Source: Flavobacterium sp. J27
Lineage (GTDB): Bacteria > Bacteroidota > Bacteroidia > Flavobacteriales > Flavobacteriaceae
Length of the DNA stretch: 64,000 nt
NCBI RefSeq assembly: GCF_004303025.1
Contig: NZ_PJQW01000002.1
Location: 231,147 to 295,146, forward strand
Direction: 5' to 3'
A model generated the notes under the pieces. The model saw only the letters and a program-made list of their open reading frames with translations. It ran no database searches and was not told the origin of the DNA. Positions 3,705-20,326 of the stretch are shown here, piece after piece. The position numbers and the translations under genes are program-made. Each line of letters starts with the position of its first letter. The stretch's first letter is position 1.

Positions 3705-5732
3705 ATGACAACGAGTACTATTTTACTTCTTATTCTATCAGTATTTATAGCTACTGGTTTATCATATTATCAATACTTTTATAAAGCTAAAAGCAAGTCT
3801 AAGATTCATTTGCTTTTAGCTTTTTTACGTTTTTTAAGTTATGTGGGCCTTTTTTTATTACTTATTAATCCTATAATTTCTAACGCATCTTACGAAATTG
3901 TAAAAACACCTTTACCTATTATTGTTGATAACTCTAAATCTATCAAAGAGTTAAGTGGTAACCATTTAGATTCTTCTTCTATTAAGCAATTAACAGAAAA
4001 TAAAACACTAAATGAAAAGTATAATTTACAATTGTATACATTTGATAAAGAGTTTATCCATAATGGAAAAATAGATTATTTAGGCAAACAATCATTACTA
4101 GATAATGTTGCTAAAAATTTAAAACAATTATATCGTAACATTAATTATCCTGTAGTTCTGTTTACTGATGGTAACCAAACACAAGGAAGTGATTATGTAT
4201 ACAGTTTTCAAAATAACACAAAGATATATCCGGTAGTTCAAGGAGATACAACTACTGTTTTTGACTTGAAAATCAATCAAATTAACGTTAATAAATATAC
4301 TTTTTTAAAAAATAAATTTCCTGTTGAAGTTTTTGTACAATATAATGGCAATCAAAACGTAACTGCTAATTTTGCAATTACAACTGGAAACCAAACCGTT
4401 TTTAAAAAGAATATTACTTTCACATCCAAAATAAAAGCACAATCTATTTCAGTTTTATTAGATGCTAATGCTATTGGGATTCAAAAATATACTGCAACTA
4501 TAACTTCCGCTGAAACTGAAAAAAACAAGAGTAATAATACTCAGAATTTTGTAGTTGAAGTAATCGATCAGCGTACAGAAATAGCTTTAGTTTCAGATAT
4601 GGTTCATCCCGATTTAAGTGCTTTAAAAAGAAGCATTGAAGTGAATGAACAACGTAAAGTAAGTTTGTTGAAACCAAATGAGATTACTGATTTAAAAAAA
4701 TATAATTTATTTATTTTTTATCAACCAAATGCTACTTTTAAAGCGTTATTTGAGGCAAATAAGAATGCTGAAATAAATTCGTTATTAATTACAGGAACGC
4801 AGACCGACTTTAATTTTTTGAATGCTTATCAAACTGATTTTAACTTTAAAATGGGCAATCAAAAAGAAGATTATTTTGCTTCTTTTAATACAGATTTTAC
4901 TGTTTTTGCTCAAGAAAATATTGGATTTGAAAATTTTTCATCTTTAGAAAATAAATTTGGTACCATTACTGTTAAAGGAAATGCAAAAACATTGCTAAAT
5001 GCAAGTATTCGTAATATACAAACTGAAAACCCATTGTTTACCTTTTTTGAAGAAGGAAAAAATAGGAGAGGTTATTTGTTTGGTGAGAACATTTGGAAAT
5101 GGAGAATGGAAACGAATTTAAAAAAGAAATCGTTCCAAGATTTTGATTTTTTTACTGATAAATGGGTGCAATTTCTAACTTCAAATACAACTAAAAAATC
5201 ATTAGAAGTAGATTTTAAAAAATATTACAATGAGGGAGAAACGATAGAAATTACGGCTCAATATTTTGATAAAAACTATGAATTAGATCAAAATGCACAA
5301 TTAAATATTGTAGTAACAAATAAAGAAACAAAATTTAAAAAAACATACAATTTCTTAAAATCAAATATTGATTATAAAGTTGAATTTGATAATTTACCAA
5401 AAGGGAATTATTCTTTTACTGTTACCGAAAATAGTTCTAAAGCTTCTTTTTCAGGAAGTTTTGAAATTTTAGAGTTTGATATCGAGAGACAATTTGTTAA
5501 TCCTGATCGAATTCGTTTAGAACAATTAGCAGCAACAACTTCTGGTAAATTATTTTATCCCAATCAATTAGATCAATTAATAAAAATATTATCAGATAGC
5601 AATTCCTATTTGCCAGTTCAAAAAGAAGTGATTACTAAAAAACCTTTAATAGACTGGAAATTACTCTTGCTTTTAATTGTTTCTTTTCTGTCTTTGGAAT
5701 GGTTTATTAGGAAATATAATGGACTTTTATAA
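3705..5732 (+). CDS. Membrane-anchored vWA-like domain protein of unknown role
   Basis: 675 residues with two N-terminal membrane helices (about 5-22 and 34-60), a large extracytoplasmic part and a C-terminal helix (about 650-668). After the second helix, LPIIVDNSKSI resembles the DxSxS metal-site motif of a von Willebrand A domain, and FTDGNQTQGS resembles its later TDG motif. This layout is seen in conserved Bacteroidota membrane proteins often labelled VWA-domain proteins; function is unknown. The last 6 bases overlap the 3' end of the convergent LTA-synthase-like gene. No operon partner is evident. Confidence 0.6.
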   Translation: MTTSTILLLILSVFIATGLSYYQYFYKAKSKSKIHLLLAFLRFLSYVGLFLLLINPIISNASYEIVKTPLPIIVDNSKSIKELSGNHLDSSSIKQLTENKTLNEKYNLQLYTFDKEFIHNGKIDYLGKQSLLDNVAKNLKQLYRNINYPVVLFTDGNQTQGSDYVYSFQNNTKIYPVVQGDTTTVFDLKINQINVNKYTFLKNKFPVEVFVQYNGNQNVTANFAITTGNQTVFKKNITFTSKIKAQSISVLLDANAIGIQKYTATITSAETEKNKSNNTQNFVVEVIDQRTEIALVSDMVHPDLSALKRSIEVNEQRKVSLLKPNEITDLKKYNLFIFYQPNATFKALFEANKNAEINSLLITGTQTDFNFLNAYQTDFNFKMGNQKEDYFASFNTDFTVFAQENIGFENFSSLENKFGTITVKGNAKTLLNASIRNIQTENPLFTFFEEGKNRRGYLFGENIWKWRMETNLKKKSFQDFDFFTDKWVQFLTSNTTKKSLEVDFKKYYNEGETIEITAQYFDKNYELDQNAQLNIVVTNKETKFKKTYNFLKSNIDYKVEFDNLPKGNYSFTVTENSSKASFSGSFEILEFDIERQFVNPDRIRLEQLAATTSGKLFYPNQLDQLIKILSDSNSYLPVQKEVITKKPLIDWKLLLLLIVSFLSLEWFIRKYNGLL

Positions 5733-7811
5733 TTTTTGATATTTTTTATTTTTCAATAAATAAGCGGCACTTTGATAAAAAGAAATTGTTTCTGTAGCTA
5801 ATGTTGTATTTATCTTTTCTTTTGGAATTTCATCATAATACAATTCAAAAGTATTTGTATTTCCTTTGCTTAATTTTAAATCAAACTGTTTTTGTTTTTT
5901 AACAGGTGATATAATCGTTAACGTATTGTTTTTAATATATCCTAAATCTTCATATGTAGCTATAAAAGCTCTAGGTTGGTAATTGTTTTTCATTATATCT
6001 TGACCAAAAAATTTGCTTTGATAATTAAAATGTAATAAACCAAAAACAGTTGGCATTAAATCGATTTGAGACATAAGTATATTTTCATTTTTGGGAGATA
6101 TAAAACCAGGTGCATAAACCATAGCTGGAATTCTATATTTATCTAAAGGCAATTCCGTTTTTCCAGAACTAGATGCACAATGATCCGCAACAATAACAAA
6201 AATCGTATTTTTAAACCATGACTGTTTTTCAGCCATTACAAAAAACTGACGTAAAGCATAATCAGTATATTTTACACCACCTTCTCTAGATTTTGAATCA
6301 CATGAAATCGAAATTTTTCCATCTGGATAAGTAAAGGGTCTATGATTGCTTACTGTCATCCAATGATTAAAAAATGGTTTACCAGTTTGCGCTTCCTTAT
6401 TCATTATTTGTATCGCTTTTTTAGCCATATCTTCATCACAAACACCCCAAATGTTTGAGAAACTAATTTCCTCAGCTGTAAACGAATTTTTATCAATTAC
6501 ATCATAACCATTTCCTACAAAGAAATCGTTCATATTGTCAAAATAAGCATCACCACCATACAAATATTTTACATCATAACCTTTGGATTTAAAAATACTT
6601 CCTGTACAAAATTTGTTTTTATTGTCTTCTCTTTTAACAACACTTTCACCAGGTGTTGAAGGAATACAAAGTGTTACAGCTTCTAAACCTCTCACGGTTC
6701 GATTTCCTGTGGCATATAAATTAGAAAAATTCAAACTTTGTAAGGCCAAAGAATCTAAAAACGGAGTAAGATTTTGTTGATTGCCATACATTTTCATAAA
6801 AGAAGCACTTAAGCTTTCAATAGTAATTAAGACCACATTCTTTTTTATTTCATCTCCTTCATTGGTTATAGTATGTGTAGATGAATCTTTCTCTATTTGA
6901 GGGAGTTGTTTTTGCAATAAAGCGAAGGCTTCCTCATTTTTAATAGTGTTGTAAAATTGGTAATAATCTAATTCACTATTTTTAAATGCAAGATAAAATT
7001 TAAAAATGCCATTAGCCTGCAATTCATTGGTATACAAATTTTTAGAGTTTTCTAAATAACTTAAGCCAGGAATAATAAATAATGAAAGGATAAAAAACAG
7101 ACCGTATATACCTAATATTTTAATTTTAGTTTTAAAAGAAGGTAAATTATCTAAGTATATCTTTGAATTTTTAACTATAAAATAAGTAGCAATTAATGTG
7201 AGTATACCAACACAGGTAAATAATGGAATTACGGGATAAGACTCCATAATGTTACCAATAACTGTATTAGTATAAACCAAATAATCTACAGCAATAAAAT
7301 TATATTTTAAACCAAATTCATTCCAAAAAAAGAATTCGCTAACCGCATTTTGTATAATTAGTAACGAAAATAAGAAAATAGTAAATGAATAAATAAGTAA
7401 TCGTATGATTTTTCTATAGTTTGGTATAAATACAAGTAATCCTATTAAAACTGTTTTTATTCCAACAAAAATAAGTCCGATTTCAGGTAAAACACCACCA
7501 TACTCATTTAAAATTGATTTGCCAGAAGCAATATAAATAAATAAAAAGGCGTATATTGAAAGTAAAATATAACCCCAAGGTTGTTTTAGTTTTGAATTAG
7601 ATAAGAATAATAAATAAAGCCATAGAAATGCACTAGTTACTATAAAAATAAAAAAATCGGATAGCATGCCTAATAACACTATTTTTAGTATTTCTAGAAT
7701 GGTGAAACTAGATTGTGTAATAGGATGAAAAAAGAGTATGATCCGTAATAATAAATTGATAATTAAATAAAAAATAACCAGATTTTTAAAAGGGGCAAGA
7801 TATTTGTTCAT
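5727..7811 (-). CDS. LTA synthase-family membrane phospho-transferase/sulfatase-like enzyme
   Basis: A 694-residue alkaline-phosphatase-superfamily enzyme with about five N-terminal membrane helices (residues 8-250) and an extracytoplasmic catalytic domain (about 320-640). Visible metal and catalytic positions are Glu332 (TIESLSASF), the nucleophile Thr372 (TGNRTVRGLE), His490 (MTVSNHRPF) and Asp543-His544 (VIVADHCAS). This is the LtaS/EptA architecture, which moves phospho-headgroups onto envelope polymers or lipids. Bacteroidota lack classical LTA, so the true substrate is unknown. Its promoter carries the 11-bp phased repeats proposed to bind the nearby response regulator. Confidence 0.82.
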   Translation of the reverse strand: MNKYLAPFKNLVIFYLIINLLLRIILFFHPITQSSFTILEILKIVLLGMLSDFFIFIVTSAFLWLYLLFLSNSKLKQPWGYILLSIYAFLFIYIASGKSILNEYGGVLPEIGLIFVGIKTVLIGLLVFIPNYRKIIRLLIYSFTIFLFSLLIIQNAVSEFFFWNEFGLKYNFIAVDYLVYTNTVIGNIMESYPVIPLFTCVGILTLIATYFIVKNSKIYLDNLPSFKTKIKILGIYGLFFILSLFIIPGLSYLENSKNLYTNELQANGIFKFYLAFKNSELDYYQFYNTIKNEEAFALLQKQLPQIEKDSSTHTITNEGDEIKKNVVLITIESLSASFMKMYGNQQNLTPFLDSLALQSLNFSNLYATGNRTVRGLEAVTLCIPSTPGESVVKREDNKNKFCTGSIFKSKGYDVKYLYGGDAYFDNMNDFFVGNGYDVIDKNSFTAEEISFSNIWGVCDEDMAKKAIQIMNKEAQTGKPFFNHWMTVSNHRPFTYPDGKISISCDSKSREGGVKYTDYALRQFFVMAEKQSWFKNTIFVIVADHCASSSGKTELPLDKYRIPAMVYAPGFISPKNENILMSQIDLMPTVFGLLHFNYQSKFFGQDIMKNNYQPRAFIATYEDLGYIKNNTLTIISPVKKQKQFDLKLSKGNTNTFELYYDEIPKEKINTTLATETISFYQSAAYLLKNKKYQKL

Positions 7812-7830: not shown

Positions 7831-7838
7831 CAAAAGTA
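7831..7838 (-). promoter_or_regulatory. -7 promoter element for the LTA synthase-like gene
   Basis: On the minus strand the bases read TACTTTTG, a perfect TAnnTTTG. It sits 19 bases before the start codon at 7811, and exactly 21 bases separate it from the nearest repeat of the 7860-7897 operator. Confidence 0.6.
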
Positions 7839-7859: not shown

Positions 7860-7897
7860 CTTAAGTTTTACTTAAAACATTCTTAAGTTTCACTTAA
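7860..7897. promoter_or_regulatory. Four phased CTTAA repeats, predicted OmpR/PhoB-type operator
   Basis: CTTAA occurs at 7860, 7871, 7882 and 7893, exactly 11 bp apart, making four direct repeats on one DNA face. The two 16-bp halves (from 7860 and from 7882) differ at one base. Tandem direct repeats at 11 bp are the hallmark of PhoB/OmpR-family dimers. The site lies between the divergent LTA-synthase-like and thioredoxin-cassette genes. A second copy of the whole arrangement is at 13045-13082. That the regulator at 11019-11681 binds it is inference. Confidence 0.7.
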
Positions 7898-7962
7898 TTT
7901 AAAAGTATGACAATACTGTTAGATTTAAAAAATCGTTTAATTTGTATTAAAATTATTTAAAA

Positions 7963-8397
7963 ATGAAGAAAATTGTAATCCTTTTGTTTTTATTAGTAAC
8001 AACTATAGGTTTTTCACAAGATTGGAAATATAATTTTGAAGAAGCAAAAGAAGTGGCAAAAAAAGAAAATAAAGATATTGTTCTTATTTTTTCAGGATCA
8101 GACTGGTGTGCGCCTTGTATAAAATTAGATAAAAATATTTGGCAATCGGAAGCTTTTAAAAAAGAATCTTCAGACAAATGGATTTTAGTAAAAGCTAATT
8201 TTCCAAGAAAAAAAGCCAATCAATTATCCGAAGAACAAACGGAACATAACAGAAATCTAGCTGAAAAATATAATATTGAAGGAAGTTTTCCATTAGTAGT
8301 CTTGTTAGATAATAATGGAAAAGTTTTAGGAAAAATGGGGTTTAAAAATGTTTCTCCTGAAGAATATATTAAAATGATTTATGCCTTAAAAAAATAA
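7963..8397 (+). CDS. Secreted thioredoxin-like protein
   Basis: 144 residues with an N-terminal signal peptide (about 1-19, ending GFSQ) and a thioredoxin fold. The redox motif is WCAPC, with Cys49 and Cys52 placed after a beta strand (DIVLIFSGSD), and a cis-Pro segment is visible near EGSFPLVVLLD. It should act in the periplasm, reducing or isomerising disulfides. It opens a tightly packed cassette: its stop codon overlaps the apbE start by one base, and DUF4266, DUF3570 and two-component genes follow. Paired with ApbE and a Cys-tailed lipoprotein, a role in redox maturation of that set is plausible but unproven. Confidence 0.85.
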   Translation: MKKIVILLFLLVTTIGFSQDWKYNFEEAKEVAKKENKDIVLIFSGSDWCAPCIKLDKNIWQSEAFKKESSDKWILVKANFPRKKANQLSEEQTEHNRNLAEKYNIEGSFPLVVLLDNNGKVLGKMGFKNVSPEEYIKMIYALKK

Positions 8398-9377
8398 TGA
8401 AATACAGCGTTTTTTTTCTTTTCTACCTATATACAGTGCTTTCTTTTGGTCAAATTATCCATAAGAAGAAGGCTTCTTTATTAGGAAGTCCTTTTGAAAT
8501 AACAGTCGTGGCAGATGATACCATAAAAGGAGAACAGTTTTGTAATATAGCTATTGAAGAGGTTAAAAGAGTGGAACATTTGATTTCAGATTGGATACCT
8601 ACTTCGCAAATTTCAAATGTGAATCAAAATGCAGGAATAAAACCAGTTAAAGTAGATGATGAAGTGTTTGATTTGGTAGAAAGAGCCATTAAAATTTCTA
8701 AATTAACTAATGGTGCATTTGATATAAGTTATGCATCTATGGATAAAATTTGGAAATTTGATGGCAGCATGAAAAAAATGCCAACAGAAGCTGAGATTAA
8801 AAAATCTGTGGAACGAGTAGGCTACCAAAAAATAATTTTAAATGCCGAAGAAAAAACTATTTTCTTAAAAGAAAAAGGAATGAAATTAGGCTTAGGAGGT
8901 ATTGGTCAAGGTTATATCGCGGATAAAATTAAAATAGTATTACAAAGTAAAGGTTGTCAGTCAGGTATTGTAAATGTTTCTGGTGATATTAATACTTGGG
9001 GATACCAAATTGATGGCAACCCATGGACAGTAGCCATTGTGAATCCATTAAATAAAGAAAAAGTGTTTGCTTCTTTTCCGTTAGTAGATAGTGCTATTGA
9101 AACTTCTGGAAATTATGAAAAATATGTTACATTTAATGGTAAAAGATATTCGCATATAATAGATCCAAGAACGGGTTATCCAGCAACAGGAATTATTAGT
9201 GTTTCGGTTTTTGCTAAACAAACGGAAATAGCTGATGCCATAGCTACAGGTATTTTTGTACTTGGTGTAGATATTGGTTTAGATTTAATTAATCAAATAA
9301 ATGGAGTAGAATGTATTATTATTGATGATAAAGGAACTATCCATTATTCTAAAAACATTGACGTTAAAACAAATTAA
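8397..9377 (+). CDS. apbE: FAD:protein FMN transferase
   Basis: A 326-residue ApbE-family enzyme that attaches FMN covalently to Thr/Ser of extracytoplasmic redox proteins. It begins with a signal peptide (residues 1-19, ending LSFGQ). Family landmarks are LISDWIPTSQISNVNQNAG near residue 57, FDISYASM, GGIGQGYIADKI, NVSGDINTWG and the metal-site region HIIDPRTGYPA. The start overlaps the preceding stop by one base, so translation is probably coupled. No neighbour is a known flavinylated protein such as NqrC or RnfG, so its substrate is not obvious. Confidence 0.93.
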   Translation: MKYSVFFLFYLYTVLSFGQIIHKKKASLLGSPFEITVVADDTIKGEQFCNIAIEEVKRVEHLISDWIPTSQISNVNQNAGIKPVKVDDEVFDLVERAIKISKLTNGAFDISYASMDKIWKFDGSMKKMPTEAEIKKSVERVGYQKIILNAEEKTIFLKEKGMKLGLGGIGQGYIADKIKIVLQSKGCQSGIVNVSGDINTWGYQIDGNPWTVAIVNPLNKEKVFASFPLVDSAIETSGNYEKYVTFNGKRYSHIIDPRTGYPATGIISVSVFAKQTEIADAIATGIFVLGVDIGLDLINQINGVECIIIDDKGTIHYSKNIDVKTN

Positions 9378-9424: not shown

Positions 9425-9634
9425 ATGAAGAAAATTATAGTAGTACTCGTTTTGGCAGGTTTTGGAACTTCTTGCAATACAGTTAAAGAATATGATAAAC
9501 AATATATTAATGACCCAGATATGAAATTAGCAGCACGATTAACAGAGCGATTTGAAACTAATTTTCAAGTGTATCGTGAAGCAGCAGCTGGAGCAAATGG
9601 TGGTAAAACAGGCGGTGGTTGCGGCTGTAATTAA
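9425..9634 (+). CDS. DUF4266 mini-lipoprotein with CGCN tail
   Basis: A 69-residue lipoprotein (lipobox ending in Cys17) of the DUF4266 family. After the anchor it has the family-typical INDPDMKLA segment, then YREAAAGANGGKTGGGCGCN at the C-terminus, with Cys66 and Cys68 in a glycine-rich tail. Such a tail could bind metal or be a redox or modification site; function is unknown. It lies 47 bases after apbE and 57 before the DUF3570 gene, the usual neighbours of this family. Its small size means nearly half the mature protein is the conserved tail. Confidence 0.85.
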   Translation: MKKIIVVLVLAGFGTSCNTVKEYDKQYINDPDMKLAARLTERFETNFQVYREAAAGANGGKTGGGCGCN

Positions 9635-9691: not shown

Positions 9692-11008
9692 ATGAAATTT
9701 AGAATAGGAATACTACTCTTATTGGTAACATTTTTTTCATTTTCTCAAGAAAAAGATTCTACTGAAGTCACTTATAAAAAAAGGGTTTTAGAAAGTATAG
9801 AGGTCGATTTTTTGGCCAGCTATTATAAACAAGATGGTATTCACTCTGCTGTTTCTGGAGGAAAAGGAACAGAAGATTTAACCGATATAACGCCTACAAT
9901 TGTTGTGGCAGTTCCGCTTAATGATGATGATGTACTTACGGTAGATGCTGGTATTTCCGCTTATTCTTCAGCTTCATCAAGTAATATAAATCCTTTTGAT
10001 ACCAATACACCAAGTCCATGGCAAGCTTCTTCAGGAGCTTCTCAATCAGATGCTTTAACGAGTTTAGTGGTAAATTATAGCCACAGTTCAAATGATAGAA
10101 ATACAGTTTGGAATGCACATCTTTCAGGTTCAATAGAATATGATTATTCATCATTTGGTTTTGGAGGTGGTTTAACCAAATTATTTAATGATAAAAATTC
10201 TGAATTTAACGTTTCTGCTAATGTTTATTTAGACACTTGGAGTCCTATTTACCCTAAAGAATTACAAGATTATAAATCTAATGGTAATAACCTAAATGGA
10301 GGTATTTTTAATAATTACACCATTACAGGAAATACAGCTTATAATCCTATCCAATTTTCTTTTCATGAAAATAAGAACAGAAATTCTTTTGCGCTCTCAT
10401 TGAGTTTTTCACAAATTCTAACGAAGAAATTGCAATTTTCTATTTTCTTAGATATTTTGCAACAACAAGGATTATTATCAACACCTTATCAAAGGATTTA
10501 TTTTTCAGATATAGCAGATTCATTTATTAATGATTTTCAATTAGCAGATGATATAGAACGTTTGCCAGATAGTCGTTTTAAATTGCCTGTTGGCGCCCGT
10601 TTTAATTACTATGTAAACGAACGTTTGGTTGTCCGAACTTACTATAGGTATTACACTGATAATTGGGATATTTCTTCACATACTATGAATATAGAATTAC
10701 CCGTTAAACTTTCCGATAAATTTACGGTGTTCCCAATGTACCGCTATTATACACAACAACAATCGAAGTACTTTGCACCTTATGAGAAACATTTATCTAC
10801 AGAAGAGTATTATACTTCAGATTATGATTTATCAACATTTGATGCCAACCAATTTGGTTTTGGATTGAATTATACAGATATTTTTACCAATGCAAAAATT
10901 TGGAAATTCGGTTTAAAAAACATCGATTTACGATATAATTATTATAAAAGAAGTGATGGATTAGACGCAAATATTGTGTCTTTCGGAGTAAAATTTGTTG
11001 AACAATAA
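9692..11008 (+). CDS. DUF3570 outer-membrane beta-barrel-like protein
   Basis: 438 residues with a signal peptide (1-19, ending SFSQ) and alternating aromatic/polar strands through to a C-terminal FGVKFVEQ strand, suggesting an outer-membrane barrel. The N-terminal region DGIHSAVSGGKGTEDLTD (residues 48-65) and the following DVLTVDAGISAYSSAS match the DUF3570 family. The function of the family is unknown, but its genes accompany thioredoxin, ApbE and DUF4266 genes, as here. The response-regulator ATG follows 10 bases after its stop, indicating one transcript with the two-component system. Confidence 0.82.
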   Translation: MKFRIGILLLLVTFFSFSQEKDSTEVTYKKRVLESIEVDFLASYYKQDGIHSAVSGGKGTEDLTDITPTIVVAVPLNDDDVLTVDAGISAYSSASSSNINPFDTNTPSPWQASSGASQSDALTSLVVNYSHSSNDRNTVWNAHLSGSIEYDYSSFGFGGGLTKLFNDKNSEFNVSANVYLDTWSPIYPKELQDYKSNGNNLNGGIFNNYTITGNTAYNPIQFSFHENKNRNSFALSLSFSQILTKKLQFSIFLDILQQQGLLSTPYQRIYFSDIADSFINDFQLADDIERLPDSRFKLPVGARFNYYVNERLVVRTYYRYYTDNWDISSHTMNIELPVKLSDKFTVFPMYRYYTQQQSKYFAPYEKHLSTEEYYTSDYDLSTFDANQFGFGLNYTDIFTNAKIWKFGLKNIDLRYNYYKRSDGLDANIVSFGVKFVEQ

Positions 11009-11018
11009 TATTACAATA

Positions 11019-11681
11019 ATGCATATTCTTATAGTTGAGGACGAAAAAGGAATAATTGATTTCCTCAAGCAAGGTTTAGAAGAAGAAGGATATACTATCT
11101 CTTATGCCACTAATGGAAAGGAAGGCCTTGAAAAAGCATTACAATTAACAATTGATTTAATATTATTAGACTGGATGTTACCTGTCTTGAGTGGCATTGA
11201 AGTATGTAAGGAAGTTAGAAAGCAAAATACAACTGTTCCAATTATTTTTTTAACGGCAAAAGATACGGTTCAAGAAACCATAGAAGGTCTAAAATCGGGA
11301 GCCAACGATTATATAAAAAAACCATTTAGTTTTGAAGAACTTTTAGAGCGAATAAAAGTACATTTTAGAACAAATAAAGAGAAAGAAAAACTAACTTTAG
11401 GAACCATAACTATAGACAGAAATACCTTTCAGGTTTTTGTAGATAAAAAAGAGATTTCTTTAACTCAGCGTGAATTTGAATTATTATCTTATTTGATTGT
11501 AAATAAAGGTAAAGTATGTACCAGAAACAAAATTATAGAAGATGTTTGGGACATTCATTTTGATTATGATACAGGTGTTATAGATGTTTTTATGAATGCT
11601 ATTCGTAAAAAACTAAACATTTCCAAAGAAGAAGAACTAATTAAAACCATACGTGGAGTAGGGTATATTGCCAATGACTAA
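11019..11681 (+). CDS. OmpR/PhoB-family response regulator
   Basis: A 220-residue regulator. The receiver domain (1-120) has the acidic pair in VEDE (residues 6-9), phospho-acceptor Asp51 (LILLDWMLP), Thr79 and Lys101 (YIKKPFS). The DNA-binding winged helix occupies about 125-218 and ends in IKTIRGVGYI. The ATG at 11019 is chosen because the more upstream ATG at 10995 would overlap the DUF3570 gene and add eight residues before the canonical first strand. It overlaps the kinase gene by 8 bases. It is the best candidate to bind the 11-bp phased repeats at 7860-7897 and 13045-13082. Confidence 0.95.
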   Translation: MHILIVEDEKGIIDFLKQGLEEEGYTISYATNGKEGLEKALQLTIDLILLDWMLPVLSGIEVCKEVRKQNTTVPIIFLTAKDTVQETIEGLKSGANDYIKKPFSFEELLERIKVHFRTNKEKEKLTLGTITIDRNTFQVFVDKKEISLTQREFELLSYLIVNKGKVCTRNKIIEDVWDIHFDYDTGVIDVFMNAIRKKLNISKEEELIKTIRGVGYIAND

Positions 11682-13074
11682 TTTTTTATCTTTTTCATTC
11701 AAAAACAGAATAGCATTCAATTATATAATTAGTGGCTCTTTTTTAATAGCCATTGTTTTTATTTTTATTTATTGTATTGTTCGTTATAGTGTTAATCAAC
11801 ACGTAAATAGCGAAATTTCGAATGAGTTGTATAAACATTTAGATGATGTTACGACCGATAGTAATGATACCTATTTAATCCAAGTCGATCAATGGAGAGC
11901 TAGGGAACATAATTCAATAAAAGTGAATCCCGTTTTTGTTGAATTCTATGATGATAATAAACAATTGATTGATAAATCGCCTAATTTAAACGATTCTAAC
12001 CTTAACCTTTTAGAAGAAACTTTTAATGAAAAATTTATTAATTCTTCTTTAAATGGAATTCCGTTACGACAAACGCAAAAAACTATTTTAAACAAAGGAA
12101 AAGTGGTAGGCTATCTAGTAGTAGCTATGTCTTTGGAAGATTTTGAAATTGTAGAAATTTTGAAAGAAACTTTACTCATTTCTTTCCCCATAATTTTAAT
12201 CATTTTGTTCTTAATAGCCCGTTTTTTTGCAGGAAGAAGTATTCGACCTGTAAGTACAATTATAGAAACATCAAGTAAAATTACGAAAGATAATTTACAA
12301 ACTAGAATTCCGTTACCAAATAATAAAGACGAATTATATATCTTATCTGAAAATATCAATAATTTATTAAATCGAATAGAAAACGCTATTGAACGTGAAA
12401 AACAATTTACATCAGATGCATCACATGAATTAAGAACTCCATTGGCCGTAATTAAAGGGACAATGGAGGTTTTAATTCGAAAATCAAGAAGTCAGGAAGA
12501 ATATGAATCGAAAATTAATTTTTGTATTTCTGAAGTTGATCGTCTCAATCATATGGTGGATCAATTGTTGCTTTTAGCTCGTTTTGAAAACCAAAAGCAA
12601 AATAGTAAAGAAGAATCTATCTATTTAAACGCTTTAATTTTAGATAGTTTAACACGCTTTTCTGAAAAGATAGAAACGAAAAAAATTCAAGTAAAAACAC
12701 AATTTCAAGATGATTATTATTTCTTTTCAGATAATTATTTAGTATCAATTATTTTTAGTAATCTTATTTCAAATGCAATTAAATATACTAAAGATAATGG
12801 TTGGGTACAACTTAGTTTGGAACAAAATCATCACCAAATACTTTTTACTATTAAAGATAATGGAGTAGGGATTTCAAACGAAAATTTAGATAAAATTTTC
12901 AACTCTTTTTATCGTTCAGATATGTCACATCATCCTGAAATTAAAGGTACAGGACTCGGGTTGTCTATTGTAAAAAGATTATGCGACTTATTAAAAATTG
13001 AAATAACTGTTACAAGTACATTACATATCGGAACAGAAGTTAAATTAAGTTTTCCCTTAGAAAATCCTAAGTAG
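11674..13074 (+). CDS. Membrane sensor histidine kinase
   Basis: 466 residues from the ATG at 11674 (a TTG at 11668 is in frame but unnecessary). It has a membrane helix at about 13-40, a periplasmic sensor region of roughly 125 residues, a second helix at about 165-185, a HAMP linker, and the HisKA box DASHELRTPLAVIKG with phospho-acceptor His251. The ATPase part shows NLISNAIKYT, DNGVGI and GTGLGLSIVKRL. It partners the overlapping response regulator. The sensor region has no obvious His- or Met-rich metal site; metal or envelope stress is inferred only from the neighbouring efflux operon. The 3' end overlaps the predicted operator. Confidence 0.95.
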   Translation: MTNFLSFSFKNRIAFNYIISGSFLIAIVFIFIYCIVRYSVNQHVNSEISNELYKHLDDVTTDSNDTYLIQVDQWRAREHNSIKVNPVFVEFYDDNKQLIDKSPNLNDSNLNLLEETFNEKFINSSLNGIPLRQTQKTILNKGKVVGYLVVAMSLEDFEIVEILKETLLISFPIILIILFLIARFFAGRSIRPVSTIIETSSKITKDNLQTRIPLPNNKDELYILSENINNLLNRIENAIEREKQFTSDASHELRTPLAVIKGTMEVLIRKSRSQEEYESKINFCISEVDRLNHMVDQLLLLARFENQKQNSKEESIYLNALILDSLTRFSEKIETKKIQVKTQFQDDYYFFSDNYLVSIIFSNLISNAIKYTKDNGWVQLSLEQNHHQILFTIKDNGVGISNENLDKIFNSFYRSDMSHHPEIKGTGLGLSIVKRLCDLLKIEITVTSTLHIGTEVKLSFPLENPK

Positions 13075-13082
13075 AACTTAAG
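13045..13082 (+). promoter_or_regulatory. Second copy of the phased-repeat operator
   Basis: Read on the plus strand, TTAAG-type words begin at 13045 (TTAAG), 13056 (CTTAG, degenerate), 13067 (CTAAG) and 13078 (TTAAG), 11 bp apart. Against the reverse complement of 7860-7897 it matches at 27 of 38 positions, and 14 of the last 16. It overlaps the end of the kinase gene (stop at 13072-13074). It ends 21 bp before a perfect -7 box. Confidence 0.62.
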
Positions 13083-13103
13083 TTATCGTATACTTTTAAA
13101 TAT

Positions 13104-13111
13104 TAATTTTG
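13104..13111 (+). promoter_or_regulatory. -7 promoter element of the metal-efflux operon
   Basis: TAATTTTG is a perfect TAnnTTTG. No TTG -33 element is visible, and the operator repeat sits where it would be, which fits an activator-dependent promoter. Transcription would start near 13117. Confidence 0.55.
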
Positions 13112-13166: not shown

Positions 13167-13547
13167 ATGAATAAAATAATTGCCATTTTTTTAATCTCTA
13201 TCTTTTTGTGTGCTAACACATCAATAGGGCAATTATTGAAAATACCAAACCTCATTGCACATTACAATGAACACAAAACACCAGGTTTTGCTGATACTAC
13301 TGTTTCATTTTTTCAATTTTTGAAAGAACACTATTCTAAGAACGCAAAAATACCACATAAAAAACACCAAGATTTACCGTTTAAGAATTTCGACACTTCA
13401 GCTAACCTTTTGTTTACGGTTACTTTTATGCCAATGCAAATTGTACTTAAAACAGTGTTTTTTGAAACAAAAAATCGTTTTTTTTATAACAAATCGTTAC
13501 AATCGAATTTGTTTTTTTCCATTTGGTTACCACCAAAAATTGCCTAA
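13167..13547 (+). CDS. Small secreted protein preceding metal-efflux genes
   Basis: 126 residues with a signal peptide (about 1-21, ending SIGQ). The mature part contains a conserved-looking block around HYNEHK (32-37) and FFQFLKEHYSKN (48-59), with His at 32, 36, 55, 64 and 67, then a hydrophobic segment (NLLFTVTFMPMQIVLKTVFF). I recognise no named domain; similar small proteins precede RND metal pumps in Flavobacteria. It is the first gene after the predicted regulated promoter and lies 94 bases before the pump gene. A periplasmic metal-binding or assembly role is a guess. Confidence 0.65.
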   Translation: MNKIIAIFLISIFLCANTSIGQLLKIPNLIAHYNEHKTPGFADTTVSFFQFLKEHYSKNAKIPHKKHQDLPFKNFDTSANLLFTVTFMPMQIVLKTVFFETKNRFFYNKSLQSNLFFSIWLPPKIA

Positions 13548-13641: not shown

Positions 13642-16600
13642 ATGTTAGAAAAAATAATTTCCTTTAGTTTAAAGAATAAACTTATAATACTACTATTTGT
13701 TATAGGTATGGTAGGTTTTGGTTTGTATTCTTTAACCAAAATACCTATCGGTGCTGTTCCTGATATTACTAATAATCAGGTTCAGGTTATCACAACTTCA
13801 CAAAATTTGTCTACACAAGACATAGAACAATATATTACCTATCCTGTAGAATTAGAGATGGCAAATTTGCCAGGTGTTGAAGAAATAAGATCAGTTTCAA
13901 AATTTGGATTATCTGTTGTTACTATAGTTTTTAATGATGAAATGGGCACTTACTTACCGAGACAGCTCATAGCTGAAAAAATAAAGTCAGCTTCAGAAAA
14001 AATTCCTCAAGGTTTTGGCACCCCAGAAATGGGACCAATAACAACTGGGTTAGGTGAAATTTATCAATATACACTTGAAGTTCAACCAAAATTTAAAGAA
14101 GAATATTCGGTTACAGATTTAAGAACCTTACAAGATTGGGTGGTAAAAAGACAACTTTCTGGCGTTAAAGGTGTGGTTGAAATTAATACTTGGGGTGGTT
14201 ATTTAAAGCAATACGAAATTTCTGTTGTTCCTGCTGTATTAAAATCAATGAATCTTACAATTAATGAAATATTTACAGCTTTAGAAAAAAACAATAGCGT
14301 GGCAGGTGGAGCTTATATTGAAAAAACAAACCAAAGTTATTTTATTCGAGGAGAAGGTAAAGTAAATTCACTTGAAGACATCAATAATATTGTTATAAAA
14401 ACGGTTAATGGTAATCCTATTACTATAAAAAATGTTGCTCATGTAGGTTTTGGTGCTGCTAATCGTTTTGGTGCTATAACAGGAAATGGTGAAGGAGAAA
14501 AGGTTTTGGGTCAGATTATGATGCTAAAAGGAGCTAATTCAAAACAAGTTATTGAAGATGTTAAAAATAGAATTACTGAAATCAACACTACTTTACCTAG
14601 GGGTGTTTATATTAACGGATTTCTAGAACGAAGTGAATTAGTTGCTAAAACAACTTTTACAGTAGCAGAAAATCTAATTTTAGGATGTTTAATTGTAATT
14701 TTTGTTGTTGTGTTATTATTAGGGAATTGGCGTTCTGGTTTAGTTGTAGCTTCGGTAATTCCTTTATGCCTTTTATTTGCTATTTCTTTTATGAATATAT
14801 TTCATATTGATGCTAATTTAATGAGTTTAGGAGCTATCGATTTTGGAATTATAATTGATGGTGCTGTAATTATTGTTGAGTTTATTGCTTTTCAAATAAC
14901 ACAACAATCTGAAAAGCTTCAACATTTAAATAAAGGCAATCAACAAGAAAAAATTGATGAAATTACACAACGAAGTGCTTCAAAAATGATGAATTCAGCA
15001 GTTTTTGGACAGCTAATTATCTTAATTGTCTTTATACCTATTTTATCATTATCTGGTGTAGAAGGAAAGATGTTTCAACCGATGGCATTAACTTTTAGTT
15101 TTGCATTAGTAGGAGCTATGTTACTTTGTTTTACCTATGTACCAGTAGTTTCTTCTTTGTTTATAAAGCCATCTAAAAAAAACAAAGACCCTTTTTCTAA
15201 TAAGTTAATAGATAAATTAAATAAATGGTATTTACCTTTAATCACATGGTCCTTAAAAAATACAAAAAAAGTATTATTAGGAGCGCTAGGTCTATTACTT
15301 ACTGCAATTGTAATTTTTGTAACTATGGGAGGTGAATTTATTCCTACTCTAGACGAAGGTGATTTTGTAATTCAACCCGTTTTAAAAACAGGAACTTCTT
15401 TATCTAAAACGATTGAAACAACCACAAGAATTGAAAAAATTATTCTGAAAAACTTTCCAGAAGTTTCTCAGGTAGTCAGTAGAATTGGAGCAGCAGAAGT
15501 TCCTACAGATCCAATGAGTATGGAGGAAAGTGATATTATTATTAAATTAAAACCAAAGTCGGAATGGATTTCTGCAAATAATAAAGACGAATTAGCTGAT
15601 AAAATTAAAATAGCAATTGAAAAGAAGATTCCCAATATAGAGATTGAGTTTACACAACCTATAGAGATGCGTTTTAACGAGCTCATTTCTGGAACTCGTT
15701 CTGATGTAGCTATTAAAGTTTTTGGAGACGATTTAAAGCTCTTAGCACAAAAAGCAGATGAAATTGCTAGCGCTATTAAAAATATACCAGGTGCTTCTGA
15801 TATTATTATAGAAAAAACAGAAGGATTACCACAAATGGCAGTCACGTATAACCGTTCTAAAATAGCTCAATATGGTATGAATATTGCAGATTTAAACGAA
15901 ATTTTATCCTTGGCTTTTGCTGGTAAAAACGTAGGTACTGTTTTTGAAGGTGAAAAACGCTTCGATATGGTAATACGTCTTAATAGCAATTATAGAAGAG
16001 ATATTCAAGATATTGAGAATGTGTTTGTAAGTACTCCCACAGGAAATCAAATTCCTTTGCAAGAAGTAGCCCAAATAGAATATACTACAGGTCCAGCTAA
16101 AATATCGAGAGACAATACAAATAGAAGGGTAGTAGTAGGTGTAAATGTTAGAAATAGAGATTTACAAAGTGTGGTAGACGATATACAAAAGGCAATAACT
16201 TCTTCTATCAAACTGCCTACAGGTTACAGGGTTACTTATGGAGGACAATTTGAAAACCTGCAAAGTGCAAAGCAAAGACTCATGGTAGCAGTTCCTATTG
16301 CATTAATTCTCATTTTTATACTGTTGTATTTCGCGTTTCATTCTATTAAAGAAGCCATAATGGTTTATTCGGCAATTCCTTTAGCAGCTGTTGGTGGTAT
16401 TTTATTGTTATGGATTCGCGATTTACCATTTAGTATTTCTGCAGGTGTCGGTTTTATTGCTCTTTTCGGAATAGCAGTTTTAAATGGGATTGTTTTAATT
16501 GAGCATTTTAAAGAATTGAAACAACAAGGATTTACTACTTATGATGAACTCATTTTAAAAGGCACAACAGATCGATTAAGACCAGTGCTATTAACGGCAG

Positions 16601-17979
16601 CCGCAGCCGCTTTAGGCTTTTTACCTATGGCTGTTTCATCTTCAGCTGGTGCAGAAGTACAACGTCCTTTAGCTACAGTTGTTATTGGGGGGTTAATTAC
16701 AGCAACATTGTTAACTATGCTTGTATTGCCTGTTTTGTATAAAATATTGGAAACTAAGGATTTAAAAAATAGAACTTTTTCTAAAGAGAAAAGGAGTGCT
16801 TTGATTTTTTTATTAAGCTTATTCTCAACTCAAAGTTTTTCTCAAAATAATACACAAGAACTAGATTCTTTAATAGCTATAGGATTGAAAAACAATCATA
16901 ATATCAAAGCATTACAACTGCATGTAGATAAGGCTGAAATAGCTATAAAAACTGCCTATGCATTGGATAAAACGATGATTTATTATAGTTATGATCAAAA
17001 TAATCTGGCAGCAAATAACGAACCACTTAAAGTTTTTGGAATACAACAAAACTTTGCTTTTCCAACGGTTTATAGTGCTCAAAAGAAGCTTTTGAAAAAG
17101 GATTGGGAGAATGAAAAAGCAAAGTTGAAAATACAAGAAAATCTATTGATTAAAGAAATAACTTCAAAGTATAATCAAATAGTTTATTTACAGCACAAGC
17201 AAAAATTATATTATTATTTAGATAGTTTGTACCAAAATTTCTCAAAAGCAAGCGACAGACGTTTTGAACTAGGTGAAAGTAATTATTTGGAAAAAATAAC
17301 TGCTCAAGCTAAATTTCGTCAAATTAATACCAAATTATCACAGTTGGGAAAAGAAAAAGAAAGTGTCTATGAAGCGTTACATGCAGTATTACAAACGGAT
17401 AAAAAAGTTGTGATTAGGACTTCTAATTTGATAGAACAAAACGATTTAACTATTACTGTTAATAAAGGAATTTATAATTCCTATTTTCAAAGTGTTACAG
17501 ATTTATATAAAAGTAAATGGAAACTTCAAAAACAACAAGCTTTGCCTGATATTCATCTGCAATATTTTCAAGGAAAAAATACTGGATTATCATCATCATT
17601 ATATGGTTTTCAAATAGGGGTTTCTATTCCAATTTTCTTTAATGGGACAATTTCTAAGAATAAAATGGTAAAACTAGAGTGGCAAAGTTGGGAAATGGAA
17701 AGAATGAATAAAACGATGCAAATAGAAGCTTATGTAAATCAGAAAAACAAAGAATTGGAAAAGCAAAAAGAAAGTATAAACTATTATAATAACTATGGGA
17801 AAAAACTTTCAGAAGAAATTTTAAAAGTAGCAAACATGAGCTATAAACATGGGGAAATCGATTTCTTTCAGTTTATACAAAGTTTAGAAAATGCAACTGC
17901 TATTCAATTGGAATATCTAGATGCCTTATTAGAATACAATTTAACGCAATTACAATTGCAATATATTACTATAGAATAA
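13642..17979 (+). CDS. CzcA/CusA-type RND metal-efflux pump fused to a TolC-like channel
   Basis: A 1445-residue fusion. Residues 1 to about 1040 are an HME-RND cation/proton antiporter: DFGIIIDGAVIIVE carries Asp400, Asp406 and Glu413 of the fourth membrane helix, the pattern of divalent-cation (Zn/Co/Ni/Cd) pumps rather than Cu/Ag pumps. Residues about 1070-1445 are a TolC-like coiled-coil outer-membrane factor. Between them is a basic stretch followed by a hydrophobic core ending SFSQ (about 1046-1068), resembling an internal signal peptide. Normal pumps of this class are about 1040 residues and the channel is a separate gene. The adaptor gene follows 13 bases downstream. There is no stop or frameshift at the joint. 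Confidence 0.92.
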   Translation: MLEKIISFSLKNKLIILLFVIGMVGFGLYSLTKIPIGAVPDITNNQVQVITTSQNLSTQDIEQYITYPVELEMANLPGVEEIRSVSKFGLSVVTIVFNDEMGTYLPRQLIAEKIKSASEKIPQGFGTPEMGPITTGLGEIYQYTLEVQPKFKEEYSVTDLRTLQDWVVKRQLSGVKGVVEINTWGGYLKQYEISVVPAVLKSMNLTINEIFTALEKNNSVAGGAYIEKTNQSYFIRGEGKVNSLEDINNIVIKTVNGNPITIKNVAHVGFGAANRFGAITGNGEGEKVLGQIMMLKGANSKQVIEDVKNRITEINTTLPRGVYINGFLERSELVAKTTFTVAENLILGCLIVIFVVVLLLGNWRSGLVVASVIPLCLLFAISFMNIFHIDANLMSLGAIDFGIIIDGAVIIVEFIAFQITQQSEKLQHLNKGNQQEKIDEITQRSASKMMNSAVFGQLIILIVFIPILSLSGVEGKMFQPMALTFSFALVGAMLLCFTYVPVVSSLFIKPSKKNKDPFSNKLIDKLNKWYLPLITWSLKNTKKVLLGALGLLLTAIVIFVTMGGEFIPTLDEGDFVIQPVLKTGTSLSKTIETTTRIEKIILKNFPEVSQVVSRIGAAEVPTDPMSMEESDIIIKLKPKSEWISANNKDELADKIKIAIEKKIPNIEIEFTQPIEMRFNELISGTRSDVAIKVFGDDLKLLAQKADEIASAIKNIPGASDIIIEKTEGLPQMAVTYNRSKIAQYGMNIADLNEILSLAFAGKNVGTVFEGEKRFDMVIRLNSNYRRDIQDIENVFVSTPTGNQIPLQEVAQIEYTTGPAKISRDNTNRRVVVGVNVRNRDLQSVVDDIQKAITSSIKLPTGYRVTYGGQFENLQSAKQRLMVAVPIALILIFILLYFAFHSIKEAIMVYSAIPLAAVGGILLLWIRDLPFSISAGVGFIALFGIAVLNGIVLIEHFKELKQQGFTTYDELILKGTTDRLRPVLLTAAAAALGFLPMAVSSSAGAEVQRPLATVVIGGLITATLLTMLVLPVLYKILETKDLKNRTFSKEKRSALIFLLSLFSTQSFSQNNTQELDSLIAIGLKNNHNIKALQLHVDKAEIAIKTAYALDKTMIYYSYDQNNLAANNEPLKVFGIQQNFAFPTVYSAQKKLLKKDWENEKAKLKIQENLLIKEITSKYNQIVYLQHKQKLYYYLDSLYQNFSKASDRRFELGESNYLEKITAQAKFRQINTKLSQLGKEKESVYEALHAVLQTDKKVVIRTSNLIEQNDLTITVNKGIYNSYFQSVTDLYKSKWKLQKQQALPDIHLQYFQGKNTGLSSSLYGFQIGVSIPIFFNGTISKNKMVKLEWQSWEMERMNKTMQIEAYVNQKNKELEKQKESINYYNNYGKKLSEEILKVANMSYKHGEIDFFQFIQSLENATAIQLEYLDALLEYNLTQLQLQYITIE

Positions 17980-17992
17980 AAAAACCAATAAA

Positions 17993-19108
17993 ATGAGAAA
18001 AATCATTTATATAATTGTAACAATAATACTTTTTGTTTCTTGTAAAGAAAATACAACAGAGAAACCAAATAACTTTAAAGAGGAAAATATTTCAGTAACC
18101 AATGAACAATTTAAAGAATCACAATTTGAAGTAGGTAATCCAAAACGTCACTCTTTTAAAATTGGTGCAAAAGTTACTGGTAAAATTGATGTTCCTCCTG
18201 AAAATAGAACTAAAATCACCTCTTTTTTAGGGGGGTATGTTAAAACAACTCATTTGCTGATAGGGGATAAAGTTACTAAAGGACAAGCTTTGGTTACCCT
18301 AGAAAACACTGCTTTTATAGACCTTCAAAAAGAATATTTAGAAGTTGCTGAACAAATCCATTATTTACAATCAGAGTACGAAAGACAAAAAACACTATAT
18401 ACTGAAAAAATTACTTCGCAAAAGAATTATTTAAAAGCAGAAAGTGATTATAAGAGAGCAAACGGTATGTATCAAAGTCTACGAAAAAAACTAGAATTAT
18501 TACATATTTCTCCAGCACAGGTTCATAAAGGTAATTTAACAGCAACGATTACAATTTATGCTCCTATTTCAGGAGATGTAACAGTAATGAATGCAAATGT
18601 AGGAATGTATATGTCTCCTTCCGATATTATTTTAGAAATTGTAGATACAAATCATTTGCATGTGGAATTAACGGTCTTTGAAAAAGATATTTTGAAAATT
18701 CATGAAGGACAACAAATTCAGTTTACAGTACCTCAAGCATCTAATGAATTATTTAAAGCTGAAGTAGTTCTCGTAGGCAAATCTATTGAAACACAAGATA
18801 GATCTATTATGGTGCACGGACACTTAGACGAAAACATTAAACAACGCCTTTTAACAGGAATGTTTGTGGACGCAACAATTATTACGGGCTCCAAAGAAGG
18901 ACTAGCTGTTCCAATAGACGCGATAATTACTGAGGATGATAAAAATTATGTCTTAGTATTGAAATCAAATTCAAATGGAAATTATATCTTTGAAAAAGCA
19001 GTAGTTCAAATAGGAGAAAAAACGACTGATGCTATTGAAATTATTGCAAACAAAAAAATAAACAAAAACTCAAAACTTTTATTAAAAGGAGTTTATGATG
19101 TTTACTAA
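17993..19108 (+). CDS. RND efflux periplasmic adaptor (CusB/CzcB-like) lipoprotein
   Basis: 371 residues with a lipobox ending at Cys17 (LFVSC). A lipoyl-like half motif (GGYVKTTHLLIGDKVTKGQAL), a coiled-coil hairpin (about 110-165) and the second lipoyl half (ITIYAPISGDVTVMNANVG) are followed by beta-barrel and membrane-proximal domains. This is the membrane-fusion protein that bridges pump and channel in the periplasm. It lies 13 bases after the fused pump/channel gene and 12 before the next gene, so co-transcription is likely. No His-rich tail of the CzcB type is present. Confidence 0.92.
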   Translation: MRKIIYIIVTIILFVSCKENTTEKPNNFKEENISVTNEQFKESQFEVGNPKRHSFKIGAKVTGKIDVPPENRTKITSFLGGYVKTTHLLIGDKVTKGQALVTLENTAFIDLQKEYLEVAEQIHYLQSEYERQKTLYTEKITSQKNYLKAESDYKRANGMYQSLRKKLELLHISPAQVHKGNLTATITIYAPISGDVTVMNANVGMYMSPSDIILEIVDTNHLHVELTVFEKDILKIHEGQQIQFTVPQASNELFKAEVVLVGKSIETQDRSIMVHGHLDENIKQRLLTGMFVDATIITGSKEGLAVPIDAIITEDDKNYVLVLKSNSNGNYIFEKAVVQIGEKTTDAIEIIANKKINKNSKLLLKGVYDVY

Positions 19109-19120
19109 TAACAAAATACG

Positions 19121-19609
19121 ATGAATAAAGCACATTTACACATGGTTTTTAACCATTTCCCTATTATTGGTTTATTTTTTGGTATAGGGATTTTACTTTA
19201 CGGAATTGTAAAAAAGCAAACCATTTTGACTAACACGGCCTATGTTATTTTTATTATTTGTATGATTATGGGTAAAGTAACTATGATGACTGGTGAAGGT
19301 GCTGAAGAAATTGTTGAAAAACTTGGAATTTCCCACCATATGATACATGAACACGAAGAAATTGCTGAGACTTTCATGAAAGTGTTATACCTTTTAGGGC
19401 TAACTTCAATTGTAGGTTTGTTTGCCAATGCGAAAAAGCATGCTAAAGCACATTTTGTGACTTATTTTGCAATTGTAGTTGCTATTGGTGCAGCTATTCT
19501 ATCTAAATCTGTGGGTACTTCAGGTGGTGAAATTCGTCATACAGAAATTAGAGAAAATGTGGCAAACGATGGTATAAATATTAATCATGAAGCAATTGAT
19601 GAAGACTAA
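19121..19609 (+). CDS. Four-helix membrane protein of the metal operon
   Basis: 162 residues with about four membrane helices (roughly 11-28, 34-55, 87-102 and 110-130). The N-terminus MNKAHLHMVFNHFPIIGLFFG resembles DUF2231-like membrane proteins, and the loop HHMIHEHEE (about 72-80) is rich in His and acidic residues, a possible metal site. Spacing of 12 and 9 bases to its neighbours puts it in the efflux operon. The domain assignment is tentative and the function unknown. Confidence 0.65.
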   Translation: MNKAHLHMVFNHFPIIGLFFGIGILLYGIVKKQTILTNTAYVIFIICMIMGKVTMMTGEGAEEIVEKLGISHHMIHEHEEIAETFMKVLYLLGLTSIVGLFANAKKHAKAHFVTYFAIVVAIGAAILSKSVGTSGGEIRHTEIRENVANDGININHEAIDED

Positions 19610-19618
19610 AAACAAGTT

Positions 19619-20326
19619 ATGGAAAATGAATTAGAAAATTATTTAGACAATCATTACATCCATAAAAGTAATTGGTTACGTGCTGCTGTTTTAGGTGCAA
19701 ATGATGGTATTTTATCAACATCGAGTATTGCTATTGGTGTAGCAGCAGCTAGCGACTTCAGAGAACCTGTAATTCTAGCAACTTTGGCAGGTTTAGTAGC
19801 AGGAGCATTATCTATGGCTGCTGGTGAATATGTGTCGGTTAGTTCGCAAACTGATGTTGAAAAAGCAGATATTGAAAGAGAGAAACAAGAACTACAGGAA
19901 ATGCCTGAAATTGAATTAGAAAGATTAGCTGCTATATATGAATCTCGAGGTTTAAAAAAAGAAACCGCACTAAGAGTTGCTAAAGAATTAACAGCTCATG
20001 ATGCATTGGGAGCTCATGTAAGAGACGAATTAGGAATTACCGAAATTAATCAGGCAAAACCTTTACAAGCGGCATTGGCTTCAGGAGCTTCATTTGTTTT
20101 TGGAGGTATGTTGCCTTTTTTAGTTACCTTATTTTTTCCTGTAAAAAACTTAGAATATTACTTGTATGTTTTTGCTATTATTTTTTTAGGTTTTTTAGGA
20201 GCATTAGCCGCTAAAACTGGAGGTTCAAATATTTTGAAAGCGGTTTTAAGAGTTACATTTTGGGGTACAATTGCTATGGTTTTAACTGCAATTGTCGGTC
20301 ATGTTTTTGGTGTAAATTTGGCTTAA
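19619..20326 (+). CDS. VIT1/CCC1-family Fe2+/Mn2+ transporter
   Basis: 235 residues of the VIT/CCC1 family. Landmarks are NWLRAAVLGANDGILSTSS near residue 18, the second-helix signature GLVAGALSMAAGEYVSVSSQ (about 59-78) and the acidic metal-binding helix with repeated Glu (about 82-105). Three further membrane helices fill the C-terminal half. The family exports Fe2+ or Mn2+ from the cytosol. It is the last gene of the efflux operon, 9 bases after its neighbour, which widens the likely metal range of the system. Confidence 0.92.
   Translation: MENELENYLDNHYIHKSNWLRAAVLGANDGILSTSSIAIGVAAASDFREPVILATLAGLVAGALSMAAGEYVSVSSQTDVEKADIEREKQELQEMPEIELERLAAIYESRGLKKETALRVAKELTAHDALGAHVRDELGITEINQAKPLQAALASGASFVFGGMLPFLVTLFFPVKNLEYYLYVFAIIFLGFLGALAAKTGGSNILKAVLRVTFWGTIAMVLTAIVGHVFGVNLA

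Follow-up and report, generated by a model that had tools for sequence, protein, structure and literature searches.

Among the described two-component systems, PmrAB and ColRS come closest to the one presented here. The PmrA box of Salmonella and Klebsiella reads CTTAAG N5 NTTAAT, with its half-sites head to tail in an 11-bp phase (PMC3973317, in part). PmrAB has an iron signal and a phosphoethanolamine-transfer target, and ColRS of Pseudomonas putida responds to Zn, Fe, Mn and Cd in excess and regulates a phosphoethanolamine transferase as well as other envelope genes (PMC4074579, in part); RaxRH is the Xanthomonas orthologue of ColRS (PMC8306577, in part). In coupling a metal response to a phosphoethanolamine transferase, these two systems are the nearest functional parallels of the regulon proposed below, as far as the passages of PMC4074579 and PMC8306577 go. 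Operators built of direct repeats are as such a known feature of metal-type two-component systems. The cassette of genes for a thioredoxin-like protein, ApbE, DUF4266 and DUF3570 is already known as well: the DUF3570 protein of Chlorobium luteolum is flavinylated by its ApbE, and 25 of the flavinylation clusters with these four genes also hold VIT1; a two-component system, operators or a link to LTA synthase are not described in the passages of that paper available to us (PMC8238504). In F. psychrophilum, the TAnnTTTG promoter box lies at −12 to −5 (PMC9723704, in part). Among the matches listed in open-licence PMC literature, judged by titles and the starts of abstracts, nothing was found on this operator or on a regulon that combines an LtaS-like enzyme with metal efflux and flavin redox.

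The locus studied here lies in the window, by which we mean the whole 64-kb stretch of DNA analysed. It starts on the − strand with an LtaS/OpgB-like membrane enzyme of sulfatase fold (LTAS, 5727-7811; Pfam Sulfatase, 9e-45). The NCBIfam models PRK12363 and LtaS gave partial scores below cut-off, and the nearest solved structures were 3lxq, LtaP and LtaS. Against the lipoteichoic acid synthase model NF053595 the protein reached 68.7 bits with a cut-off of 970, and its assignment is to the sulfatase-fold superfamily alone. All further genes are on the + strand. The cassette comprises a secreted thioredoxin-like protein (7963-8397; Pfam Thioredoxin_7), the FAD:protein FMN transferase ApbE (8397-9377; Pfam ApbE, 1e-83), a small lipoprotein-like DUF4266 protein whose translation has a C-terminal CGC (9425-9634; Pfam) and a DUF3570 protein with an SGAS motif at residue 114 (9692-11008; Pfam). 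This is the full set of a DUF3570 flavinylation cluster, i.e. ApbE, DUF3570 with [ST]GA[ST], a thioredoxin-like protein and DUF4266 with a C-terminal CXC. Of the two motifs known from the DUF3570 family, one was found here, and by analogy the protein is likely flavinylated.

Two-component genes follow. The OmpR/PhoB-family response regulator (11019-11681; Pfam Response_reg and Trans_reg_C), which we propose as the operator-binding protein, scored best with the NCBIfam model cztR_silR_copR (TIGR01387; 214.9 bits, below the cut-off of 279.2), and the sensor histidine kinase (11677-13074; Pfam) with cztS_silS_copS, again below cut-off. Alignments of the kinase sensor region inspected by eye revealed no conserved ExxE motif, and its AlphaFold model (mean pLDDT 70.9, pTM 0.42) was too weak for placing a metal site. 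ORF126 (13167-13547), a secreted protein of 126 residues with no family in Pfam or NCBIfam, is the first gene of the efflux operon here and in a subset of relatives. It precedes a CzcA-type RND metal pump (13642-17979; Pfam ACR_tran and OEP), which reached 1191.5 bits against TIGR00914 (cut-off 701.45) and whose nearest solved structure was that of ZneA, a zinc pump, with CusA ranking lower. The OEP outer-membrane-channel domain is fused to the pump's C-terminus, giving a single chain of 1445 residues. The operon continues with a CzcB-type periplasmic adaptor (17993-19108; Pfam HlyD_D23, RND_mfp over cut-off), the 162-residue membrane protein orf162 (19121-19609), which has no Pfam match and which we take to be DUF2231-like, and a VIT1-family metal transporter (19619-20326; Pfam VIT1, 3e-66).

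Two putative operators flank the cassette and the two-component genes. Operator 1, read in the direction of LTAS (7860-7897, − strand), consists of four TTAAG words in an 11-bp phase that score 20 of 20, and its last word lies 21 bp from the −7 box TACTTTTG of the LTAS promoter (7831-7838, − strand). Read on the + strand, the same site is CTTAAG-N5-CTTAAA-N5-CTTAAG-N5-CTTAAT. Operator 2 (13045-13082, + strand) has the words TTAAG at 13045, CTTAG at 13056, CTAAG at 13067 and TTAAG at 13078, with scores of 5, 3, 4 and 5 out of 5; the −7 box of the efflux operon, TAATTTTG (13104-13111, + strand), starts 21 bp after 13082. The first-pass annotation had described the 11-bp phase of these words with a degenerate one at 13056, an identity of 27 of 38 positions with the reverse complement of 7860-7897, the 21 bp between the last word and a TAnnTTTG box at both operators and an overlap with the end of the kinase gene. 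Our recount reproduced all of this: the phase is exact, the word at 13056 matches in three of five positions, both distances and the identity hold, and the kinase stop codon TAG (13072-13074) falls inside operator 2. With operator 1 itself excluded, its best match in the 64-kb window was the site at 13045 (27/38 on the + strand and, one base away, 27/38 on the − strand), whereas the top match in windows simulated with a second-order Markov model (n = 12) reached only 24-25 of 38.

Genome scans used a composite pattern of four words, 21 bp and the box, with up to three mismatches in 26 positions and a reversed pattern as control. The genome of origin (G000; 4.33 Mb in 39 contigs) gave three matches, namely operator 1 in both directions and operator 2, and the control gave none. 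The concern that the motif might be common at random positions was not borne out, all three matches lying in the cluster. Three-word candidates with one mismatch were not taken as operators: the pair on C4 lies within a 42-bp tandem repeat before a SulP-like gene, C35:242629 has no cluster gene nearby, and C1:297875 showed no match among the cluster proteins. The repeat just mentioned (L004:1439-1718) carries TTAAGTTTGGTTTAAGCATAACTTAAT words, precedes a transporter gene that is SulP-like by eye, and can pass for the operator when short patterns are scanned.

Across 199 Flavobacterium genomes the composite pattern yielded 88 sites in 68 genomes, and the control two. The 11-bp word phase is common to all 88, of which 87 were re-found in the extracted loci, two of them being registers of one site in L264. 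An LTAS-like gene, CzcA, VIT1 or another cluster gene was the first recognised downstream gene in 79 of the 87. This gene was an LTAS orthologue for 26 sites, an LTAS paralogue (41-44% identity) for 12, CzcA for 29, ORF126 before CzcA for seven, a VIT-like gene for three, orf162 for one and the thioredoxin gene for one, that of the window; eight sites had another gene or none. By these counts, strict sites most often target LTAS and CzcA. In large genomes, G154, G163, G190 and G200 for instance, LTAS and a divergent regulator-kinase pair stand on either side of the site, and no redox cassette separates them.

Among the eight sites without a cluster target, one (L250) sits at a contig end just past the kinase, and the remaining seven precede unrelated genes: a TonB-receptor-like gene, a TolC-like gene before a distant CzcBA operon, a 142-aa gene, a DUF347 membrane protein gene and three DUF1573 genes. 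Six of the seven have three mismatches, and the DUF347 site (L244:5147, − strand) has two. The DUF347 gene and the TolC-like one (L254:3035, + strand, three mismatches) might be extra members of the regulon. The three DUF1573 cases (L252, L253 and L255, from three genomes) have a weak word array with three mismatches before a gene for a DUF1573-like secreted protein, identified by Pfam in one locus and by eye in the others.

The distance to the promoter box was followed in 80 named loci obtained by a kinase scan, mostly titled Flavobacterium and with F. profundi nearest; they are not an independent set, since several are the same records as genus genomes. When sites were chosen on the words only (at least 17 of 20) in these 1.25 Mb, 178 were obtained, counting strands and registers apart, as against two with reversed words. 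A perfect TAnnTTTG started at 21 bp in 55 of them, at 10 bp in nine, at 32 bp in seven and elsewhere in seven; the 16 sites with spacings of 10 and 32 bp are one register away from 21 bp. In 102, reverse-strand readings among them, there was no perfect TAnnTTTG within 60 bp. By promoter, the box was at 21 bp in 37 of 49 cases for CzcA and in 24 of 25 for ORF126, the window included. LTAS orthologues were looser, with T[AT]nnTTTG at exactly 21 bp in 17 of 58 and TAnnTTTG at 22 bp in eight more, and five of 16 LTAS paralogues had a box at 21 bp in the relaxed form NAnnTTTG. Tandem half-sites one helical turn apart and a fixed promoter position, two features of OmpR/PhoB direct-repeat operators, were thus both found. 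The distance from the kinase stop codon, on the other hand, varies (−27 in 28 and −12 in 17 of 62 loci), and coding constraint therefore does not explain the site.

The sites track the regulator. With a threshold of E≤1e-60, regulator orthologues were detected in 139 of the 199 genus genomes but in 66 of the 68 that bear a site (Fisher p 4e-11, a value that ignores relatedness and overstates independence because genomes of one genus are related). Two genomes, G155 and G281, have sites and no regulator at this threshold, 58 have neither, and in 73 of the 139 regulator-bearing genomes no composite site was present at up to three mismatches. In L226 (from G155) CzcA retains operator and box, with no adjacent regulator or kinase and no regulator in the genome at E≤1e-60. 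No part of the regulator is better conserved than its recognition helix, VIDVFMNAIRKKL (0.92, compared with 0.75-0.84; 131 loci, some genomes represented twice).

The half-site is the same as that of PmrA and likewise arranged head to tail, operator 1 displaying it on the + strand, with four copies here and two in the PmrA box. The CCTAAG variant of the PmrA pbgP box recurs in the window at 13066-13071 (PMC3973317, in part). Further likeness to PmrAB lies in the family of the regulator, OmpR/PhoB, and may extend to the iron signal and the phosphoethanolamine-transfer target of that system (PMC4074579, in part). The recognition-helix residues named for PmrA, His193, His195, Asn196 and Glu199 (PMC3973317, in part), however, correspond by eye to Phe, Asn, Ala and Lys, and the regulator scored 151.4 bits against NCBIfam PmrA, whose cut-off is 330, compared with 214.9 for cztR/copR. 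Because the helix lacks the residues named for PmrA, the likeness of the sites does not make this regulator a PmrA. From ColRS the system differs in its kinase, which by eye lacks a conserved ExxE, in its target enzyme, which is LtaS/OpgB-like, and in the presence of RND efflux and a flavin redox cassette in the proposed regulon. CusRS and CzcRS provide the top NCBIfam models for both regulator and kinase, and a CzcA-type pump adjoins the two-component genes here too, but both scores are under the curated cut-offs. The CusR site is a palindrome, whereas the operators described here are direct repeats.

Only two of 147 genomes from other genera carry the four-word pattern; in both it has no cluster gene nearby, and in one it falls in a local repeat. 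Eight genomes from as many other genera hold a regulator at 58-64%. The form found in them has two words, TTAAGNNAATCTTAAG, and its box stands 32 bp beyond the second (= 21+11). It lies in front of the regulator (strict in seven of eight), of CzcA (seven of eight) or of another neighbour. Its presence at these eight loci is not independent evidence, because the pattern was drawn up after viewing them. That it is missing elsewhere when held to at most one mismatch is informative: there were then 21 sites genome-wide, 20 of them within 9 kb of the regulator and the remaining one before a second, partial regulator copy. At up to three mismatches there were 49 matches and 15 for the control, which was not split by mismatch.

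The promoter of the thioredoxin-ApbE cassette requires separate treatment. Operator 1 is nearly as good in this direction (7861-7898, + strand; 18 of 20), and the probable −7 box of the operon is TTAATTTG (7937-7944, + strand), 38 bp after the last word. TAGATTTA (7920-7927), a box at 21 bp that seemed to repeat the geometry a third time, was rejected because it is lost in the nearest relatives while TTAATTTG is kept. Spacings of 37 or 38 bp between a two-word site and T[AT]nnTTTG were present in 51 of 86 thioredoxin promoters, the window included, and the arrangement was absent from the other 35; a control word occurred five times at 37 bp and never at 38. The shared 21-bp distance claimed in the first-pass annotation accordingly holds for the efflux and LTAS promoters, more loosely (21 or 22 bp) for the latter, and the cassette has a 37-38-bp site of its own.

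Of the genus loci that hold the regulator, 62 of 85 have a two-word site, matching in at least nine of ten positions, before the thioredoxin gene; of those that lack it, none of 11 does. We further inspected 40 cassette loci of 13-15 kb each from a family sample, 39 from other genera and one from the Flavobacterium genome G127. None reaches a four-word score of 16 of 20 and none holds the regulator in the locus. We had read this as cassettes away from the regulator bearing no site, a reading overturned at the two-word level: at least nine of ten positions matched before the cassette in four of the 40 (G127, G040, G117 and G031). In G127, G040 and G117, the cassette lies away from a regulator encoded elsewhere in the genome, and the site is present in all three, as against one (G031) of 34 cassette genomes without a regulator (E≤1e-75). 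This trans evidence, from few genomes, suggests that the cassette belongs to the regulon. In G053, G093 and G130, also of other genera, the cassette is part of the regulator's cluster, placed after CzcB or CzcB-VIT1-orf162, and lacks a separate site. In L168, L180 and L188 (also L175 and L176), from other genera, the thioredoxin-ApbE-DUF4266-DUF3570 cassette comes after CzcA-CzcB, with VIT1 in two, and the metal-efflux link should therefore be older than the arrangement seen in the genus.

We thus propose, with a probability of roughly 85%, that 7860-7897 and 13045-13082 are class-II activator operators of the adjacent OmpR/PhoB-type regulator (11019-11681), with autoregulation included. Each would offer four head-to-tail half-sites of consensus YTTAAG, one per helical turn, and thereby room for two regulator dimers, equivalent to two PmrA-box-like sites in series. 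Given the box position in F. psychrophilum and the 21-bp spacing, the end of the last word falls at about −34, which is where activators of the OmpR type overlap with the −35 region. At the LTAS and efflux promoters the regulator, sitting on the −33 region, would recruit polymerase. Operator 1 would act divergently, facing also the thioredoxin-ApbE-DUF4266-DUF3570-regulator-kinase operon with its box 38 bp away, and since this operon holds regulator and kinase, the two-component genes would be autoregulated. Binding of the regulator to both operators and activation from them are predicted from sequence. The signal may be an excess of divalent metal (Zn, Co, Cd, Ni, Mn or Fe) or the resulting envelope damage; divalent metal is a better guess than copper because ZneA precedes CusA as the pump's nearest structure.

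A site ending around −34 could also block the −33 region, and this regulator may use the operators chiefly for repression or in a dual role, another factor then being the activator. We regard this as unlikely, given that the distance to the −7 box stays in a single helical register (55 sites at 21 bp), as expected for an activator. The identity of the binding protein is a separate matter. PmrA, another response regulator, uses TTAA half-sites of this kind (PMC3973317, in part) and two of the 68 site-bearing genomes lack the regulator, so that a different OmpR-type or other protein might bind the words beside merely co-located two-component genes; this is very improbable in view of the regulator's presence in the other 66, of the eight other genera, where all 21 strict sites are found either no more than 9 kb from the regulator or beside its second copy, and of the cassettes distant from it, with a two-word site in 3/3 against 1/34. 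Chance similarity is the reading that the base composition invites: the window has 30% GC, single TTAAG-like words are common, and the short three-word pattern at up to three mismatches matches 542 times, fewer than its reversed control (970). Four words joined to a box are another matter, with no control match in the own genome and two against 88 in the genus, and an accident of the kinase coding sequence would not fix the site to the promoter instead of the stop codon. The counts already refute both versions, to which we give next to no weight.

The earlier idea of one regulon joining efflux, redox cassette and LTAS is supported: sites precede such genes in many genomes of the genus and track the regulator. 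Most likely, one sensor would switch on the LtaS-like enzyme, efflux and flavin chain together. Operators before LtaS-like genes, including paralogues and cassette-free loci, suggest that surface phosphoglycerol chemistry is part of the response. A PmrAB-like circuit of Flavobacterium's own, with surface phosphoglycerol transfer by the LtaS-like enzyme (and in some genomes a paralogue under the same operator) as its core output, switched on along with divalent-metal efflux and periplasmic flavin redox in a single response to metal and envelope stress, is a tentative extension that we consider possible but somewhat doubtful. The DUF3570/ApbE cassette, whose function is called uncertain in passages of PMC8238504, would gain the context of divalent-metal efflux, and the LtaS-like enzyme of a Gram-negative genus would be tied to the same switch. 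The regulon would also come with a defined operator. To our knowledge, few response-regulator sites have been mapped in this phylum.

Finally, a Flavobacterium-type cluster of this kind occurs in metagenome bins whose titles name Bifidobacterium breve, Klebsiella pneumoniae and Sphingobacterium thalpophilum (L298, L299 and L344); either the contigs or the titles have probably been misassigned. In two relatives DUF3570 has a second copy in tandem (L103 from G160 and L141 from G289).
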